This document shows positions 18,456 to 25,596 of a DNA stretch of 64,000 bases, one piece after another. Made by a program: the position numbers and the translations under genes. Position 1 is the stretch's first letter; the number at the start of each line of letters is the position of its first letter. This stretch comes from Deferrisoma camini S3R1. Its GTDB lineage: Bacteria > Desulfobacterota > Deferrisomatia > Deferrisomatales > Deferrisomataceae. Under the pieces are notes generated by a model. It searched no databases. It was not told where the DNA came from and worked only from the letters and a program-made list of their open reading frames with translations. The DNA lies in assembly GCF_000526155.1 (NCBI RefSeq), contig NZ_JAFN01000001.1, positions 810,501-874,500 on the forward strand, given 5' to 3'.

Positions 18456-18484
18456 CTTATACCCGGACCCGCCGGGTCGATCAA
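18456..18484 (-). promoter_or_regulatory. sigma70-type promoter of the 75-aa gene
   Basis: On the minus strand: TTGATC, 17-nt spacer, TATAAG. It overlaps the 3' end of the SAM hydrolase gene and would leave a leader of about 70 nt before the small gene. Confidence 0.7.
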
Positions 18485-19281
18485 GGGACGAGGAGGACCG
18501 GCGTGCCCCGGGTGAGCCCCAGCACCTCTCGGGCGCTGCCCTCGCGAACGCCGATCTCCAGGCGATCGCTGGAGCCCCAGAGGGCCAGGGCCTCTCCCGG
18601 GTCCACCTCGGCGTAGGTCCGGACCACCGGGATCTCCCGGCCGGCCACCCGGACCCTACGGCCCGGGCCGTGGCCCTGTCGGAGGTTCGTGACGGCGTTG
18701 CCGAACCGGTCGAAGGCGAGGACCTGGCCCTCCACACCCTCGGGGGTGGGGCGGGGTTGGGGGAAGGGCAGCCGGTGAATCGAGTCGGCCCGGGGCCCGA
18801 CGAGGCCGGGGTCGGCCCCTGCGGCCAGGTGGGCCGCCACCGGCGCGAACACGTCCCGGCCGTGGAAGGTGGAGCTGACCGGATGGAGCCACAGGGCGGG
18901 GTTCTCGATCCGGCGCACCTCCCGGATCTCCGCGGGGTCCAGGAACGACAGCAGGCCGTTGTCCGGGGCCACGAACCAGGCGGCCTTCGTGGCCACGGCC
19001 ACGGCCGGCCGGTCCGTGCCCACCCCCGGGTCCACCACGGCCAGGTGCACCGTGCCCGGTGGGAAGTAGGGCGCGGCCGCCTCCAGCGCGAGGCATCCGG
19101 CCAGCACGTCCTGGGGCGGCAGCTCGTGTACCAGGTCGACCAGCCGGGCCCGGGGGCAGATCCCGAGAATCACCCCCTTCATGATGCCCACGAACGGGTC
19201 CCGGCCGCCGAAGTCCGTGGTCAGGGTGACCACCGGGGGTTCCTTGACAGCCCGGGGTGCCGGCTCTACTCTGGCTTGCAT
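18481..19281 (-). CDS. SAM hydroxide adenosyltransferase family protein (DUF62)
   Basis: 266 residues with all hallmarks of the SAM hydrolase/fluorinase-like family: VTLTTDFGGRDPFVGIMKG near the N-terminus, HLAVVDPGVGT, APDNGLLSFLD, HGRDVFAPVAAHLA and the C-terminal DRFGNAVTNL. Characterised archaeal and bacterial members hydrolyse S-adenosylmethionine to adenosine and methionine. ATG at 19281 was chosen because the Asp-rich active-site strand follows after a normal 15-residue lead; upstream in-frame sequence overlaps an opposite-strand promoter and small gene. Its 5' region thus shares DNA with the plus-strand promoter at 19244. Confidence 0.9.
   Translation of the reverse strand: MQARVEPAPRAVKEPPVVTLTTDFGGRDPFVGIMKGVILGICPRARLVDLVHELPPQDVLAGCLALEAAAPYFPPGTVHLAVVDPGVGTDRPAVAVATKAAWFVAPDNGLLSFLDPAEIREVRRIENPALWLHPVSSTFHGRDVFAPVAAHLAAGADPGLVGPRADSIHRLPFPQPRPTPEGVEGQVLAFDRFGNAVTNLRQGHGPGRRVRVAGREIPVVRTYAEVDPGEALALWGSSDRLEIGVREGSAREVLGLTRGTPVLLVP
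19244..19272 (+). promoter_or_regulatory. sigma70-type promoter of the 24-codon gene
   Basis: Consensus TTGACA (19244-19249), 17-nt spacer, TACTCT (19267-19272). It points away from the SAM hydrolase gene, whose first codons it overlaps, and toward the tiny reading frame at 19315. Expected transcript start is near 19279. Confidence 0.75.
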
Positions 19282-19314
19282 CCCATCATCCTCACACGAA
19301 GGGAGGTGAGCGCA

Positions 19315-19389
19315 ATGACGATGAAGCGGTTCATGGTGCCCCGCGTGGCCCACTGCAGCGAGGGCTGCCCTAGTCGGTCCTGGGCATGA
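19315..19389 (+). CDS. 24-residue peptide gene with own promoter and terminator
   Basis: A 24-codon frame beginning MTMKRFMVPRVAH and ending EGCPSRSWA, with two Cys (14 and 18) in CSEGC. A textbook ribosome site GGGAGGTGAG precedes the ATG by 4 nt. A TTGACA-N17-TACTCT promoter lies about 43 nt upstream and a strong intrinsic terminator begins 24 nt after the stop, giving a transcript of about 180 nt with nothing else on it. I know no matching family. It could be a functional peptide (metal-binding or modified), a leader peptide without a structural gene, or the coding part of a dual-function small RNA. Confidence 0.6.
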   Translation: MTMKRFMVPRVAHCSEGCPSRSWA

Positions 19390-19412
19390 CGCAAAACTGC
19401 CCACCGGATCCG

Positions 19413-19460
19413 ACCCGGGAGTCGCGCGGCCCGCCGGCCGCAGGCTCCCGGGTTTGTTTG
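19413..19460 (+). terminator. intrinsic terminator after the 24-codon gene
   Basis: Stem arms ACCCGGGAG (19413-19421) and CTCCCGGGT (19445-19453), with a GC-rich inner part, followed by TTTGTTTG on the plus strand. Confidence 0.88.
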
Positions 19461-19550
19461 TAACTTCGGTCGTTGGTCGTTAGTCGTTGGTCGTCGGTCG
19501 AGGGCCTTCGGCCCGCTGGGCGGCTAGGCTGCTAGGCGGCCGGGCCGCTT
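19461..19550 (-). repeat. octamer + hairpin + heptamer composite array
   Basis: On the minus strand: octamer words (CCGCCTAG, CAGCCTAG, CCGCCCAG), then CGGGCCGAAGGCCC, then heptamers CGACCGA, CGACCAA, CGACTAA, CGACCAA, CGACCGA, then AGTTAC. It abuts the terminator of the 24-codon gene. This is the start of the 19461-19913 gap, which holds only repeats and hairpins. Confidence 0.9.
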
Positions 19551-19576
19551 CCCCGAACCGTCGCCAAACGCTCGGT

Positions 19577-19716
19577 GGGGCATGGGTTTCAGGGGCCAGA
19601 ATTCAGAAGTGGGTGGACAGGGAGAAGGCTTTTCGGTGCCCCGAGAGGATCCCCCCGGGAACCCAGGATTTCCTGTCTCCTGTCCGCTGAATTCCGGTTC
19701 CTGAAAGCCATGCCCC
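19577..19716. repeat. 30-bp inverted repeat element
   Basis: Arms 19577-19606 (GGGGCATGGGTTTCAGGGGC...) and 19687-19716 (the reverse complement, about 25 of 30 matching) enclose 80 bp. A solitary arm with the same sequence lies at 62653-62682, and a looser version at 23059-23189, so this is a mobile or dispersed unit. Confidence 0.8.
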
Positions 19717-19743
19717 GCCGCCGGCTCTGCTCCCCGCATCAGG

Positions 19744-19800
19744 GAACGTTACCCTTCCCGTTGTAGGGCCCCGCAGGGGCCTGATGGGGCCTTCTACCAG
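19744..19800 (-). repeat. GGCCCC hairpin family (R5), copy 1
   Basis: On the minus strand CAGGCCCCTGCGGGGCC is followed by CTACAACGGGAAGGGTAACG. The same unit recurs at 29987-30021, 36201-36260 and 62366-62406. The hairpin plus AACGGGAAGGGTAAC tail is constant while flanks vary. Confidence 0.85.
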
Positions 19801-19913: not shown

Positions 19914-20087
19914 CTACATCGGGAAGGATCCGGACTCCCCCGGGGCCGGCGGGGCAGGGGCCAGGCGTTCGGCAGGGGGGAGCCGTCGGGTGCGGGGCCT
20001 CCACACCCCCAGGGCCCGGAACCCCCACACCCCCAGCACGAACCCGGCCACCACCAGCCAGGCGAACCACCGGCGGTCGACCCTCAC
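19914..20087 (-). CDS. 57-aa single-TM protein, redox operon
   Basis: A small protein starting at GTG (20087) that overlaps the NapH-like stop as GTGA. It has a single membrane helix (FAWLVVAGFVLGVWGFRALGVW) followed by a basic, Pro-rich tail (PRTRRLPPAERLAPAPPAP). No metal ligand is visible. Coupled translation and the presence of another tiny membrane protein earlier in the same operon support it as a real accessory subunit of the membrane ferredoxin complex. I know no named family. Confidence 0.55.
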   Translation of the reverse strand: MRVDRRWFAWLVVAGFVLGVWGFRALGVWRPRTRRLPPAERLAPAPPAPGESGSFPM

Positions 20088-20962
20088 GTCCGGACCTCCA
20101 GCCGCAGCTCCAGGGCGCCCCGGTCGCATGCGTCGAGGCAGCGCAGGCAGTTGGTGCACAGGGCGTCGGTGACCCGCTGCCGGCGGGCAACGGGAATGCG
20201 CTGGGGGCAGGCCCGGGAGCACCGGTTGCACCGGGTGCAGGCCGGGTCGGCCCGGGTGATGCGGATGCGCCCGAGCCGGGAGATCGGGTCCAGGGCCGCG
20301 CCCAGGGGGCAGAGGTAGTGGCACCAGGCCCCGGGCACCACCAGCGCCCCGGCCGCCAGCACGGCCAGCACGGCGTATCCCCCGACCGGGGCCGCGGCGC
20401 TCCCCACCGTGTACAGGGCGAAGAAGGGGTCCACCTCCTTGAACACCAGGTACCCCGCCCACCCGGTGAGCCCCACGAGCACCGCCAGCACGGCGTAACG
20501 CAGCCGCCGGAGACGCCGATCCCACCGGCCGGGCAGCCGGACCTGGCGGACCCCGAGCCGCCGGCCGACCCAACCCAGGGCCTCGAACACGGCGCCGAAG
20601 GGGCACAGCCAGGAGCAGAAGGTCTTCTTCGTCAGCAGCACCAGCGCCGCCACGGCGAACAGCACCCCCAGGTTGCGCAGGGTCACCGGCCCCACGAACG
20701 AGACCCCCCGGCCCGCGGCCAGGCCCTGGGCGGCCCGCACCACCCCCTCCAAGGGGCCGAACGGGCAGTAGTCCTCGATGCTCAGGCTGCCGGCCTCGGG
20801 GCCGAACGGGAACAGACCGGCCAGGGCCGACAGCGTGGGAGGGGGGGTGCGGGTCTGGTCCGCCAACGCCACGAGGTAGGCCGCGTTGAGGGCGATCCAG
20901 GCGGCCCAGAGCACCGAGGCGGCCTGGACGGCCACCCGCAGGGGCCAGGCGCGGTTACGCAA
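20084..20962 (-). CDS. NapH/MauN-type membrane polyferredoxin
   Basis: 292 residues with about five membrane helices. Cys motifs face the cytoplasmic side: CSWLCPFGA and CHYLCPLGA near the helices (the paired CX3CP motifs of NapH/RdxA/NosR-type proteins) and a C-terminal ferredoxin domain with CTRCNRCSRACP and CTNCLRCLDAC. It would pass electrons between quinone and the soluble ferredoxin/aldehyde oxidoreductase partners. Start is TTG (20962), overlapping the TAA of the preceding small gene. It is followed by a 57-aa membrane protein. E. coli ydh and napH operons offer the closest functional analogies. Confidence 0.85.
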   Translation of the reverse strand: MRNRAWPLRVAVQAASVLWAAWIALNAAYLVALADQTRTPPPTLSALAGLFPFGPEAGSLSIEDYCPFGPLEGVVRAAQGLAAGRGVSFVGPVTLRNLGVLFAVAALVLLTKKTFCSWLCPFGAVFEALGWVGRRLGVRQVRLPGRWDRRLRRLRYAVLAVLVGLTGWAGYLVFKEVDPFFALYTVGSAAAPVGGYAVLAVLAAGALVVPGAWCHYLCPLGAALDPISRLGRIRITRADPACTRCNRCSRACPQRIPVARRQRVTDALCTNCLRCLDACDRGALELRLEVRT

Positions 20963-21122
20963 CCCGGTCCCCCTGTTGGGGTTGCTCGATGCGGGGCGAG
21001 GGGAAGCAGGCCCCGCAGGCGGCGCACACCCCCAGGGGGCAGGTGCCCGTCCCGGTCCGCCCGAGGGCGGCCAGCACCAGCCCCCACAGGCCCACGGCCA
21101 CGGCCAACCAGCGAGCCCTCAC
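20955..21122 (-). CDS. 55-aa Cys-rich single-TM protein, redox operon
   Basis: Read from GTG at 21122 (another GTG lies at 21128). One membrane helix (LAVAVGLWGLVLAALG) is followed by CPLGVCAACGACF, four Cys in 13 residues, and a short polar tail. The Cys spacing could bind a cluster or zinc on the outer side. It sits between the aldehyde oxidoreductase stop and the NapH-like gene with 7-10 nt spacing and overlaps the latter by 8 nt, so it belongs to the complex. No family is known to me. Confidence 0.6.
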   Translation of the reverse strand: MRARWLAVAVGLWGLVLAALGRTGTGTCPLGVCAACGACFPSPRIEQPQQGDRVA

Positions 21123-21131
21123 GCGCACGGC

Positions 21132-22946
21132 TCACCCCGCCAGGGCCCGGGCCACGTCCCCCAGGCCCAGCCCGCCCAGGGTCTCGGCGGTGGGAACCCC
21201 TCCGGACCGGGTCCAGCCCCGCCGTTCGTAGTACTCGGCCAGCATCCGGGCCTCCTGCTGCGCGTCGAGCACGGCGCCGGCCCGCGGGCCGGTCCGGAAC
21301 GGCTCGGACCGACACCGCTCCGGAAGCCGGTCGTCCTCCGGGCCGAACCCCTCGCGCACGGCGAAGGCCCGCTCGAGGTTCCAGATCCGCGCCCCGATGC
21401 GGCGCAGGTCGTCCGGGGACCGGTCCACCCCGGTGACCGCGGCCAGGGCCTGGGCCTGCACGGACAGGGGGTTGGCGTAGAGGTGGAACCGGCACAGCCC
21501 CAGCGAGTCGGACACGGCCCGCTCGTCCTGGACCCGAGGGGTGTGGCCGAACTCGTGGGCGGCCCCCACCGGCGAGGTGCCGAACGAGACCGCCAGCAGG
21601 GGCAGGCCCGGCGGGTTGTAGGTGTCCATCTCGAGCCCCTTCACCTCCATAGCCCACGGGGCCGTGTCGGGCCCCAGCTCCCGGCTGGCCGCCCGCACGC
21701 CCCGGGCGGCCCAGACCACGCCCTCGTCTGCCCCGGCCAGCAGGTCCACCAGGGCCAGGAACCCCTCGGGGTCCCCCCACCGGGGCTCGACCCCGGCCAG
21801 CTGCGAGGGGGTGACCACGCCCTTGTCGGCGGCCTCGGCCAGGAATCCAAGGAGGTTGCCGGTGCTGGAGGGGTCGAGCCCCAGGCGGTCGCACCGGTCC
21901 TTCAGGCGGAGCACGGCCTCCAGGTCGTCGAGCCCCAGGTTGGTCCCCAGCATGGCCGCGGTCTCCAGCTCCGGGCCGGCCACGGCCAGCCCCCGCCCGT
22001 CCCGATCCCGGATCCGGGCCACCTTGCGGCAGTGGAGCGGGCAGTAGAAGCAGGCCTCGCTGCGGGTCCAGAAGACCGCCTCGGCCCGGACCGCCCCCAC
22101 CCGGGGGGCCGCCGGGGTCCACCCCTCCCGGAAGTTCCGCACCGCCAGGAACCCGGCGTCGTTTCCGGCCTCCAGCAGGCAGGCGGTTCCGTACCGCCGC
22201 CAGGTCTCGAACCGGTTCCACCCCCGGAGGTTCTTGGTGAGCCCCGGCGTCAGCTCGTCCAGGGCCTGGGGCCGCGCCGCGTCGAACGGGGTCAGGGTGC
22301 CCCGCACCGCGATGGCCTTGAGGTTCTTGCTCCCCCACACGGCCCCGATGCCGCCCCGGCCGCCGTGGGCCCCGTAGGGGTGGCTGTGCACGACCGAGGC
22401 CAGGGGAACGAGCCTCTCCCCGGCCGGGCCGATGGCCGCCACCTGGTACGGCTCGCGGGGCAGCTCGTGGCGCAGCATCGCCTCGGCCTCGGGGATCTCC
22501 TTGCCCCAGAGGTCCAGCGACGGCCGCAGGTGGGCCTCGCCGTCCCGGATCACCAGGCTGACCGGCTCGGGGGCCCGACCCCTCAGGATCACGGCGTCGA
22601 ACCCGGCGTAGCGAAGCTCCGTGGCCAGATGGCCCGGCATCTGGCCGATGGCCAGGGTGGCCGCGCCGGCCACGCCGTTGCGCGGAGCGGTGGCCGGGCT
22701 CTTGGTCACCACGCTGGTGCGCGACGCCCCCGGCACGGGGAACCCCGTGAGAGGGCCGGCCGCCAGCACCACCACGTTCTCGGGCCCCAGCGGGTCCGCT
22801 CGGGCCGGCACCGCGTCCCAGACGAGCCGGACCGCCAGGCCCCTGCCGCCGAGGTAGCGGGCGACGAGGTCCGGGTCCAGCCGCCGGGTGCGCACCTCGC
22901 GCCGGGTCAGATCCACGTCGAGAACGGTTCCTGCGTAAGCTTCCAT
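21132..22946 (-). CDS. tungsten-type aldehyde:ferredoxin oxidoreductase family protein
   Basis: 604 residues, normal length for the AOR family. The N-terminus has the pterin-binding YLGGRGLAVRLVWD and later NGVAGAATLAIGQMPGHLATELRYAG. The 4Fe-4S ligands are CFYCPLHC (about residue 302) and a distant Cys in SLGLCRFH. Such enzymes oxidise aldehydes, or other low-potential substrates, using W- or Mo-bispyranopterin, and transfer electrons to ferredoxin. There is no export signal. The operon pairs it with a Tat-type ferredoxin and a NapH-like membrane protein, reminiscent of E. coli YdhV/YdhY. The start lies directly against a heptamer array and lacks a ribosome site. Confidence 0.88.
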   Translation of the reverse strand: MEAYAGTVLDVDLTRREVRTRRLDPDLVARYLGGRGLAVRLVWDAVPARADPLGPENVVVLAAGPLTGFPVPGASRTSVVTKSPATAPRNGVAGAATLAIGQMPGHLATELRYAGFDAVILRGRAPEPVSLVIRDGEAHLRPSLDLWGKEIPEAEAMLRHELPREPYQVAAIGPAGERLVPLASVVHSHPYGAHGGRGGIGAVWGSKNLKAIAVRGTLTPFDAARPQALDELTPGLTKNLRGWNRFETWRRYGTACLLEAGNDAGFLAVRNFREGWTPAAPRVGAVRAEAVFWTRSEACFYCPLHCRKVARIRDRDGRGLAVAGPELETAAMLGTNLGLDDLEAVLRLKDRCDRLGLDPSSTGNLLGFLAEAADKGVVTPSQLAGVEPRWGDPEGFLALVDLLAGADEGVVWAARGVRAASRELGPDTAPWAMEVKGLEMDTYNPPGLPLLAVSFGTSPVGAAHEFGHTPRVQDERAVSDSLGLCRFHLYANPLSVQAQALAAVTGVDRSPDDLRRIGARIWNLERAFAVREGFGPEDDRLPERCRSEPFRTGPRAGAVLDAQQEARMLAEYYERRGWTRSGGVPTAETLGGLGLGDVARALAG

Positions 22947-22947
22947 G

Positions 22948-23036
22948 TGACTTCGGTCGTTGGTCGTCAGTCGTTGGTCGTCGGTTGGGGGCCTTCGGCC
23001 CGCTGGGCGGCTAGGCAGCTAGGCGGCCGGGCGGCT
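22948..23036 (-). repeat. octamer + hairpin + heptamer composite array upstream of AOR
   Basis: On the minus strand: CCGCCTAG, CTGCCTAG, CCGCCCAG, then CGGGCCGAAGGCCC, then heptamers (CAACCGA, CGACCAA, CGACTGA, CGACCAA, CGACCGA), then AGTCAC immediately before the AOR ATG. It is nearly identical to 19461-19550. Here the array occupies the place where a ribosome site would be expected. Confidence 0.92.
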
Positions 23037-23058
23037 CTCGAATCGCGCCAAAGCTCGG

Positions 23059-23189
23059 GGGTATGGGGATCAGGGGTCAGAGGACAGACGTCAGTGGACG
23101 GGTCGTGGTCCCACGACGTCGCTTTGGCCACAGTGTCTTTACCCTTTTTCTGGCTCCTGTCCCCGAAATTTTGGCTCCTGAAGATGGCT
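23059..23189. repeat. degenerate inverted-repeat element
   Basis: GGGTATGGGGATCAGGGGTC near 23059 and GGCTCCTGAAGATGGCT near 23173 resemble the arms of the 19577-19716 element in the same relative order to the neighbouring heptamer array. It lies between the Tat-ferredoxin stop and AOR, so it would be transcribed within the operon. Confidence 0.5.
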
Positions 23190-23216
23190 CCGGCGCCTCC
23201 CAGCCTCCTCGCCCCC

Positions 23217-23921
23217 TCACCGGTACCACAGCCGCGCCAGCTCCTCGCCGAGGAGGTACGGGTTGCGGGCCAGGTACCGGCCGTCGAAGGTGATCGGCAC
23301 CCGCGCCATCGCCCCGTTGGGGCAGAACTTGACGCAGGAGGGGTCGCCGTCGCACAGGGTGCAGAACCCCTCGGGGCGTTTCGATGCCTCGTTGCGCCGC
23401 AGGATGCCGCTGCGTTCCCGCTGGCACACGTCCACGCACTTCCAGCACCCCGTGCACGCCACGTTGTCGAGCTTGAGCCCCTTGACCTTGGGGTCGTGGT
23501 ACAGCGCCCGGGTGCCGGCGGCCGCGTCCACCACCACGGGGCACTCCGCGATGCACGGGGCGTCCTTGCACAGGTAGCAGTGGTTGGGCACGCTCACCGG
23601 CGGCACCAGGTGGATCACCTGGAGGTTGGCGTGGCGGGGATTGTAGGTCTTGTAGTTCTTGCGGGCGCACTCCACCTCGCAGATGCGGCAGCCGACGCAC
23701 CGCTTCAGGTCCACGACGACCAGGGAAGGAGGCTGCTCCTGGGGCTGGGCCGCCGGCGCGGGCCGTGGCAGCAGGAGGCACAGGGCCAGGTAAGAGGCGC
23801 CGGCGCAGGCCTGCACCAGAAACTGCCGGCGGCTGGGCCGGGATGCGGCCGTCGGGGCGGGCTCCCGGCGGCGGGGCAGTCGGGAGAGGCAGTAGTCCTC
23901 GGGTCCGGGCGGGTGTAGCAT
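23217..23921 (-). CDS. Tat-exported four-cluster ferredoxin subunit (HybA/NrfC/YdhY-like)
   Basis: 234 residues. A twin-arginine signal (SRRQFLVQACAGASYLALCL) starts near residue 35, after an unusually long N-terminal lead. Sixteen Cys form four 4Fe-4S motifs: CVGCRICEVEC, CYLCKDAPCIAEC, CTGCWKCVDVC and CTLCDGDPSCVKFC. Family members act as electron-transfer subunits of periplasm-facing oxidoreductases. The gene heads the AOR operon and has a TTGACA-N17-TACCCT promoter 50 nt upstream. An exported ferredoxin next to a signal-less AOR is a topological puzzle: either the Tat motif is retained uncleaved or the partner lies elsewhere. Confidence 0.85.
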   Translation of the reverse strand: MLHPPGPEDYCLSRLPRRREPAPTAASRPSRRQFLVQACAGASYLALCLLLPRPAPAAQPQEQPPSLVVVDLKRCVGCRICEVECARKNYKTYNPRHANLQVIHLVPPVSVPNHCYLCKDAPCIAECPVVVDAAAGTRALYHDPKVKGLKLDNVACTGCWKCVDVCQRERSGILRRNEASKRPEGFCTLCDGDPSCVKFCPNGAMARVPITFDGRYLARNPYLLGEELARLWYR

Positions 23922-23979
23922 GGGGCCCCCCGTGCTGGTCCGACCTCGGCAGGTTGCCTGGGATGGGATGAGTGCGGCG

Positions 23980-24008
23980 AGGGTAGGGTAGGGCCGGGAC
24001 CGTGTCAA
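23980..24008 (-). promoter_or_regulatory. sigma70-type promoter of the redox operon
   Basis: On the minus strand: TTGACA (24008-24003), 17-nt spacer, TACCCT (23985-23980). It is divergent from the DUF445 gene, which starts at 24040. Confidence 0.75.
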
Positions 24009-24039
24009 GACGTGCCGGCCCCCGGAAGGGAGGTCTCCC

Positions 24040-25596
24040 GTGACCGCGCAGCTTTGGACGGCGCTGGCCGCGCCGGTGTTCGGGTTCGCCATCGGATACG
24101 CCACCAACGCCCTGGCGATCCGGATGCTGTTCAGGCCGTACGACGAGAAGCGGGTGCTGGGCCTGCGGTTCCAGGGCATGATCCCCCGCCGCAAGCAGGA
24201 CATCGCCCGGACCGTGGCCGAGGTGGTGACCACCGAGCTCCTGCGGGAGGACCGGGTGGCCGAGCGGTTGGCAGGGCCCGAGGTGCGTCAGGCCCTCGAG
24301 GCCCTGGCCACGGACCTGGCGGTCCGGTACCTGGCGCCGGGGGAGGGGGCGTGGATCACGCGCCCCGAGCCGCGCCGGGCCCTGGCGCGGGCGGTGGAGG
24401 GGGCGGTGCGGGAAGGGGCGGCCGGCCTGGCCGCGTGGCTCTCGGGGCCGGAGGGGCGCCGGGCGGTGGGCGCGGTGCTGGGGAGCCTGCTCGAACGCTC
24501 GCCGGCGGACCTGCTGCCCGGGGAGCAGGGGCTCCTGCGGCGGTTCGCGGCCGGCAAGGCTGCGGAGCTGCTGGCCTCGCCCGGCCTGGAGGCCCGGGTG
24601 CGGCAGGCCGTGAGCCGATTCGCCGTGCGGCTGGCCGGCGTGGAGCGGCCGGTGGGCGAGCTGCTGCCGCCCGAGGTGCGGGGGGCGATGCGGGCGGCCG
24701 TGGAGCCCCTGGTGGACCCCCTGCTCCACCGCTTCGAGGAGGCGGTGCTGTCGCCGGCCAACGTGGACCGGATCAAGGCCGCGGTCCGGGCGGGCATCGT
24801 GGGGTACCTGGCCGAGCTGAGGGGGGGGCTGGTCAAGAACGCGATCCGCCACGCCGCGCTCCTGGCCCGGGACCGGATCTTCCGGGAGGCGGACGAGCTG
24901 GTCGACGCGAACCTGTTCCGGCTCCGGGAGCTGGTGCGCCAGGAGGAGCACCGGGAGAGGATCCGGGAGGGGATCCTGGAGGCCGTGGACGGGTTCCTGG
25001 GGCGCACCCCGGGCGAGATCCTGGCCGAGGTGCCGGCCGAGGCCCTGGACCGCCTGTTCGACCAGGTGTCCGCCTGGGCGGCCGGCCGGCTGCGACGGCC
25101 CGACACGGCCGAGGCCCTGGTGGGGTGGGTGGAGCGCGAGCTCGACCGGTGGTACGCGGAGCCGCTGGGGCGGGCCGTGGCCGTGGCGGATCCGACCGCG
25201 CCGCAACGTTGGGTCGAGTCGTTCGTGGGCTGGGCCCGGGACGGCGGGCTGGAGCGGCTGGCCGAGCGGGAGGCCCCCCGGATCCGCCGGGCCGTGGAGC
25301 AGGCCTTGGCCAGCGGCCGGATCCCGCCTCCGCCCCGGGAGGTGGTGCGGGACCTGGTGGGGGTGGCGTTCCAGCGGGTCATGCCGGTGATCGCCGAGCA
25401 GGTGCCCGCGGTGCTGTCGATCGTGGACGTGAGGGGGCTGGTGGAACGCCAGATCCAGGCGTTCTCTCCGGCCGAGGTCGAGCGGGTCATCCTGCAGGTG
25501 GCCCGGCGGGAGCTGCGGGCCATCACCTGGTGGGGCGGGGTGCTGGGGGCTGCGGTGGGAGGGGTGCAGGCGGGCCTGCTGCTGCTGGCCGGTTGA
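24040..25596 (+). CDS. DUF445 family membrane protein
   Basis: 518 residues. The N-terminal membrane helix contains the family signature FGFAIGYATNALAIRMLFRPY, and the C-terminus has a second helix (GGVLGAAVGGVQAGLLLL). Between them lies a long helical domain with GMIPRRKQDIARTVAEVV and repeated amphipathic segments. DUF445/YheB-like proteins are widespread and membrane-bound but have no agreed function. GTG start at 24040 is supported by AAGGGAGGT 7 nt upstream. It is divergent from the redox operon and has no partner downstream: 737 bp of repeat sequence follow. Confidence 0.8.
   Translation: MTAQLWTALAAPVFGFAIGYATNALAIRMLFRPYDEKRVLGLRFQGMIPRRKQDIARTVAEVVTTELLREDRVAERLAGPEVRQALEALATDLAVRYLAPGEGAWITRPEPRRALARAVEGAVREGAAGLAAWLSGPEGRRAVGAVLGSLLERSPADLLPGEQGLLRRFAAGKAAELLASPGLEARVRQAVSRFAVRLAGVERPVGELLPPEVRGAMRAAVEPLVDPLLHRFEEAVLSPANVDRIKAAVRAGIVGYLAELRGGLVKNAIRHAALLARDRIFREADELVDANLFRLRELVRQEEHRERIREGILEAVDGFLGRTPGEILAEVPAEALDRLFDQVSAWAAGRLRRPDTAEALVGWVERELDRWYAEPLGRAVAVADPTAPQRWVESFVGWARDGGLERLAEREAPRIRRAVEQALASGRIPPPPREVVRDLVGVAFQRVMPVIAEQVPAVLSIVDVRGLVERQIQAFSPAEVERVILQVARRELRAITWWGGVLGAAVGGVQAGLLLLAG

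Follow-up and report, generated by a model that had tools for sequence, protein, structure and literature searches.

The locus raises the question whether a frame of 24 codons, located in the window (the whole 64-kb stretch of Deferrisoma camini S3R1 DNA that was analysed) next to a divergent SAM hydrolase gene, is a gene at all, and what a gene of that size might be for. The preliminary description of this DNA had answered the first part in the affirmative, proposing a complete gene with its own promoter, ribosome site and terminator, and this is borne out: homologues are found across phyla and their core is under coding selection.

The mini-gene in the window

A sequence check of the 64-kb window finds all the named elements of the mini-gene in place on the + strand. 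The promoter, TTGACA at 19244-19249 and TACTCT at 19267-19272 with 17 nt between them, is kept in congeners. The ribosome binding site, AGGGAGGTGA, occupies 19300-19309, and the mini-ORF of 24 codons and a TGA (MTMKRFMVPRVAHCSEGCPSRSWA) runs from 19315 to 19389 (ATG at 19315, stop at 19387-19389); site and frame, the latter with its CSEGC, had been correctly located. A terminator hairpin with a T-rich tail follows at 19413-19460 (stem ACCCGGGAG/CTCCCGGGT at 19413-19421/19445-19453, tail TTTGTTTGT). The positions originally assigned to promoter and terminator hold, but the adjectives "consensus" and "strong" were generous: the -10 element TACTCT matches consensus at three of six positions, and no promoter or terminator is called at the mini-gene by a standard consensus scan (expected, 0.0 and 0.2). 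The arrangement TTGACA-N16-18-TAnnnT occurs just twice in the 64 kb. As judged from the sequence, the reality of the mini-gene rests on comparative and not on local evidence, which would not convince by itself.

The longest ORF of the divergent SAM hydroxide adenosyltransferase (PF01887 and PF20257; - strand) extends from 18481 to 19404, and its true start probably lies near 19282. On the + strand there is, as originally remarked, no gene for 4.6 kb (the next, encoding a DUF445 protein, starts at 24040), and the window copy has no gene to lead. Because of this its product must be a free peptide or a short RNA.

A dispersed intergenic repeat of ~300 bp begins right after the terminator (19459-19760). 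It has 64 matches in the genome and is MITE-like, with GTCGTTGGTCG runs and a 49-nt imperfect inverted repeat (19573-19621/19672-19720). Downstream of the mini-gene, 20084-24233 on the - strand encodes, convergently, a NapH-like ferredoxin, AFOR (aldehyde:ferredoxin oxidoreductase) and a 4Fe-4S protein. A c-di-GMP riboswitch was considered on account of a GEMM-like GACGCAAA...CCGG and rejected, there being no such Rfam match at E<=5. An sRNA of the SorX/CcaF1 type was likewise discarded: the best window match, to SorX, scores 19.5 bits where the cut-off is 46.6, and is at the level of chance.

Distribution of the family

In a DNA search of relatives the mini-gene segment is 93-97% identical in two congeners, and it can be aligned throughout the window's order. 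Homologues are present in 11 other genomes, of which ten share the window's genus, family or order and the remaining one, G027, belongs elsewhere in the phylum, and the best-conserved part of these matches is the ORF together with 25 nt past its last Cys codon. A covariance model built from ten relatives' sequences (R1) matches 51 of 297 evenly sampled genomes of the window's phylum, and a broader model built later (R2) matches 30 of 149 genomes of the Moorella phylum and 31 of 117 Omnitrophota genomes; both models, trained on type A sequences, under-sample divergent forms, and counts of named genomes are lower bounds. Pseudomonadota, which serve as negative control, yield one R2 match in 200 genomes, the seed genome itself. 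When 84,980 species genomes are scanned for an exact pattern, at least 117 stretches match, and the taxa among the matches listed include Deltaproteobacteria, Omnitrophota, Zixibacteria, Actinomycetota and Firmicutes (Moorella, Pelotomaculum, Desulfotruncus, Desulfofundulus and Thermincola). Genomes carry one copy, at times two or three.

These sequence matches delineate a family that is common to several bacterial phyla and is unnamed. Six family peptides have no match in Pfam or NCBIfam; Rfam 15 at gathering threshold has none for the window, for 20 family loci or for a phage copy of the RNA structure described below; and tblastn finds no match to a family peptide on plasmids. Literature searches, in a corpus without bioRxiv preprints as such and with few subscription papers, found nothing for the peptide string, and among the matches listed for the RNA strings all titles are unrelated. 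Synteny with the SAM hydrolase gene, which had been suggested as something to look for, is discernible by eye in G000-G002, G005 and G007. It is a local feature of the window's order, and the SAM hydrolase was rejected as a partner on that ground.

Selection on the peptide

The 14-codon core of the peptide has the consensus [KR]-[FYW]-x-[LIVM]-x-x-[VTI]-A-H-C-x-x-G-[CH]. In a non-redundant set of 66 homologues it contains no in-frame stop (0/66), as against 49/66 and 38/66 for the other two frames; entropy at codon positions 1, 2 and 3 is 0.63, 0.57 and 1.55 bits, making third positions 2.5-fold more variable than the others; and a serine codon switches between AGC and TCC. The pattern is that of a peptide under coding selection. 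Frameshifts and stops in the homologous frames, alongside a conserved terminator, were a sign by which the preliminary description would have given up the gene; the outcome is the opposite, and the gene stands. Its prediction that Cys14 and Cys18 are conserved is also correct, with the second Cys replaced by His or Ser in some members and with TGC and TGT both in use. The motif H13-C14-S-E-G-C18 (19351-19368 in the window) is the most conserved part in family translations.

Family peptides are 16-25 residues long, with neither a signal peptide nor RAPP, and GGAGGTG-type ribosome sites lie 5' of nearly all homologues. In other genera the homologue starts at the second ATG (19321 in the window, MKRFM...). 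Families f11, f14 and f23 have a second peptide form, MRWMFPHATHCSxCGS, and family f28 has a third, WIERFRIRPVSHCKEGC. Reading of the TGA as selenocysteine was rejected: homologues have CGA or AGA at that place and stop elsewhere.

A pseudoknot at fixed distance

Past the second Cys codon lies a structure that is absent from the preliminary description. An 8-nt linker of fixed length and free sequence (19369-19376) leads to a predicted H-type pseudoknot of 26 nt (19377-19402), in which S1 pairs GUC (19377-19379) with GAC (19388-19390) and S2 pairs GGGCA (19382-19386) with UGCCC (19398-19402). The first and second loops are short, the third loop is 7 nt long and ends in AAAC, and the TGA stop is within the knot. 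Over 100 matches, 97.1% of cells are paired and seven of eight pairs are compensatory, a result reached by 0 of 500 shuffles; cells changed on both sides number 41, against 6.2 in shuffles; and when the partners are slid along one another pairing falls to 30-50%. S2 is inside the search model, and its counts lean accordingly; S1 is outside it, so that covariation in S1 is not imposed by the search. S1 is GUC:GAC, with CUC:GAG in L263, L266, L267 and L268 and GCC:GGC in L069 and L230. Conservation is strong in the unpaired AAAC but does not extend to the 3' tail beyond the knot. Covariation of this kind indicates that an H-type pseudoknot is under selection 8 nt past the second Cys codon.

The spacing is constant to a degree that the sequence of the linker is not. 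The His-Cys codons are exactly 20 nt from the knot, equivalent to the 8-nt linker, in 106 of 115 distinct loci among the matches listed (in a scan that allowed 18-26 nt and to which spacings beyond that are invisible), and linker letters vary almost freely, at 1.1-2.0 bits per position. The stop codon comes no later than the end of the knot in 63/66 homologues, compared with 34/66 for an equal-length stretch farther downstream; a column-shuffle control gives a weaker contrast (63 observed, mean 59.0), because stop-forming letters are common in those columns. In L132, L156 and L182 the linker is two bases shorter, and the third loop supplies a stop for the new frame. With its stop at or before the knot end in 63 of 66 homologues, the terminating ribosome must therefore cover or melt the knot; to judge by the alignments, the stop codon is so placed that ribosome and knot overlap. 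A peptide that acted simply as a free product would need no such fixed spacing.

Rare variants of altered spacing include L067, with an SCCSEGG stretch inserted in the peptide, and L232-L234; the first part of the knot is duplicated (15 nt) in L233 and L234.

The knot without the peptide

Peptide and knot are separable: family f28 has the peptide alone, and the knot occurs alone in phages and in a genus-level paralogue. In the f28 loci (L074, L078, L083, L084) the motif is kept and an ordinary GC-rich hairpin replaces the pseudoknot; two of these loci are upstream of a MacA-like efflux gene and one is near YedF and a SelD-like gene.

Exact knot matches in viral contigs number at least 130, in at least 120 stretches and more than 100 contigs, and lie mostly between co-directional genes; among the viral matches listed, none has a His-Cys motif at the expected place. 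In phage D6E the knot is between portal and scaffold genes, in Staphylococcus phage SA13 between head-morphogenesis and GP20 genes, and in other named phages ahead of tRNAs; one viral contig (L362) holds five copies. Hosts include Staphylococcus, Mycobacterium, Corynebacterium, Arthrobacter, cyanobacteria, Moorella and Paracoccus, and there is in addition one Vibrio phage family. Across viral contigs L270-L276 and L288-L367 and phage loci L408-L417, the knot without peptide is often upstream of scaffold/head genes or tRNAs.

In the 297 genomes of the window's phylum, on the other hand, 27 of 30 exact knot matches coincide with a peptide gene (a reversed-pattern control gives 0), and the remaining three are one locus of the window's genus. 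A second knot copy in that genus (L006, at G000:C1:1734800-1734827 on the - strand, with orthologues L022 and L023) has a ribosome site and ATG opening an unrelated, unconserved short ORF (MAHLCSS...), whose stop or frame varies between congeners.

Transcription signals and neighbouring genes

Promoters scoring at least 10/12 are found upstream of 62/190 homologues, as compared with 10/524 control stretches, and terminators downstream of 33/92, as compared with 3/89. According to simple longest-ORF gene calls, the neighbour is co-directional downstream at 134/168 loci and upstream at 131/164; because the two sides are equal, the element is not simply a leader, and a pure leader was rejected. 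The first co-directional downstream gene encodes an Rrf2 protein in 12/79 and 11/42 cases, and an HMA-bearing protein (copper ATPases included) in 6/79 and 3/42, in two samples that overlap in lineage; for 76 genes at a distance of over 2.5 kb on the same contigs, the 25 families listed include neither Rrf2 nor HMA. Further downstream neighbours include MsrA/MsrB, hemerythrin, YHS, MopE-type copper-binding and rubrerythrin proteins. Overall the neighbours are heterogeneous, Usp, GrdB-like and Lgt proteins occurring as well as Msr and hemerythrin. The original judgement that a leader role is unlikely is apt for the window copy; other members, which it missed, do lie directly upstream of Rrf2 regulators or copper ATPases. 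The eight neighbours in the window, among them SAM hydrolase, Bax1-I, Fer4, AFOR, DUF445 and PFOR, include no modification enzyme or transporter of the kind expected for a RiPP precursor. From the neighbours we infer that the Cys residues might sense either redox/Fe-S stress or a thiophilic metal, with copper the first candidate.

What the element may do

The reading preferred here, to which we assign a probability of about 0.45, is that the element is an independently transcribed and translated mini-gene whose ribosomes gate the RNA pseudoknot. Ribosomes running through to the stop would melt the knot; if ribosomes paused during synthesis of HCxxGC, perhaps in response to copper or another thiophilic stress, or did not load, the knot would fold. 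Once folded it could be a mechanical block, either to ribosomes or to nucleases arriving from the 5' side, as with coremin-like motifs, and the block would change how stable the RNA is or how it is read. At loci with a following gene, that gene would be tuned by the switch; for the window copy the output would be the peptide, a short 3' RNA, or both. The role of this orphan copy is the weakest link of the gating model, and is unproven. A larger claim can be offered only tentatively and is rather doubtful: that ribosome-gated pseudoknots constitute a new class of RNA switch, occurring both in DNA phages and in several bacterial phyla, where a coremin-like knot incorporates the stop codon of a sensor mini-peptide and translation decides whether ribosomes or nucleases are blocked.

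The most serious competitor, though unlikely, is that the active product is the released peptide, a micro-peptide (HCxxGC) that binds metal or thiols in the cytoplasm, and that the knot merely limits or stabilises its own mRNA. This would accord with the mini-gene's own promoter and terminator, with the many loci that have no conserved downstream gene, with retention of the peptide by f28 in the absence of a knot and with metal-handling neighbours on both sides; the constant length of a linker whose sequence is free, and the stop inside the knot, are left without explanation.

Alternatively, the knot might be a coremin-like xrRNA that protects against 5'-3' decay, with the ribosomes of the mini-ORF lifting the block. 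The succession GUC-loop-GAC-GUUAAAC-U does resemble coremin, GUCCGAAGACGUUAAACUAC (PMC10520033), the phage knots lie between co-directional genes with several copies in one contig, and bacterial RNase J1 has been halted in vitro by a flavivirus xrRNA (PMC5760640). Yet a strong RNase J match is found in about 28 of 51 element-bearing genomes, and several element-bearing families have none; because the rate is close to that of the phylum sample, no specific partnership with RNase J is supported, and an RNase-J-specific xrRNA was rejected for want of a phyletic link. Moreover, the loop reads C-YGRGC-AN and not YGAD/YGNNAD, S2 is a true helix, and orphan copies leave just ~50 nt downstream to be protected. 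The xrRNA reading is decidedly improbable.

A dual-function small RNA, in which knot and terminator would regulate mRNAs in trans besides the coding of a peptide, has a smaller chance still of being correct. The monocistronic layout with terminator and the strong conservation of the unpaired AAAC are what such an RNA might display, while the unconserved tail beyond the knot, the freely varying linker and the location of phage knots inside polycistronic messages are not. The preliminary description, which had named this possibility, came close to the extent that peptide and RNA are both selected; it missed the embedding of the stop in the knot and the cross-phylum family. An attenuator sensing charged tRNA-Cys is very improbable, for although the two conserved Cys codons come before an RNA structure, an arrangement seen in the cysS leader motif uORFC-8-2 (PMC8632094), non-Cys residues are equally conserved, either Cys codon serves, the second Cys can be His or Ser, and no genes of Cys metabolism stand out downstream.

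On any of these readings, a ~20-residue peptide, of a size normally skipped by gene callers, and a 26-nt knot are conserved from the former Deltaproteobacteria to relatives of Moorella and Omnitrophota, with no Pfam, NCBIfam or Rfam model. If ribosomal gating is the correct one, translation of a Cys-rich micro-peptide would be tied to an RNA block close to copper, Fe-S and redox genes of anaerobes.

Comparison with known systems

SgrS/SgrT is a dual-function sRNA, small and monocistronic, with a translated mini-ORF. The mini-gene differs in that ORF and structure overlap, and it has no known antisense target. Attenuators of the uORFC-8-2 type, in which a mini-ORF with Cys codons precedes an RNA structure (PMC8632094), differ from the present family, which keeps a whole peptide motif and not codons only and has no consistent downstream biosynthetic gene: neither a biosynthetic nor a tRNA-synthetase gene stands out downstream at the family loci or in the window.

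The coremin motif of plant viruses stalls Xrn1 and scanning ribosomes, at times with an embedded stop codon (PMC10520033), and is found in beny- and cucumoviruses, between genes or at ORF ends (PMC10520033, PMC5869530). The knot is like it in having a GUC:GAC stem followed by GUUAAAC-U. On the other hand, the coremin loop is YGAD or YGNNAD and is followed by hp2, while the loop of the knot, CYGRGCAN, has 8 nt and pairs with UGCCC in the covarying S2; and coremin is a motif of RNA viruses, the knot one of bacteria and DNA phages. Because loop consensus and S2 helix differ, the knot is taken to resemble coremin and is not filed as a member. By analogy, the knot alone, as found in phages of Staphylococcus, mycobacteria, corynebacteria and cyanobacteria, would be a small equivalent, in bacteria, of the RNAs with which viruses block nucleases.

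On the peptide side, CruR (DUF2946) and CutF are copper-sensing leader proteins that carry an arrest motif at the C-terminus (RAPP in CruR); both head operons, and CutF has a signal peptide and is exported (PMC9426467, PMC9973294). No homology to CruR/DUF2946 or CutF is detected when six family peptides are compared with Pfam and NCBIfam, family translations contain no C-terminal RAPP or proline-rich arrest motif, and the window copy heads no metal operon, although HMA/CopA or Rrf2 genes follow some members of the family. CruR and CutF are full proteins, and the family here consists of peptides of 16-25 residues with the stop embedded in a pseudoknot. What is shared is that a short ORF encoding a Cys motif, in many cases next to transition-metal genes, is translated and coupled to downstream RNA structure or termination, and in this sense CruR and CutF can be thought of as the nearest working analogues of the peptide.
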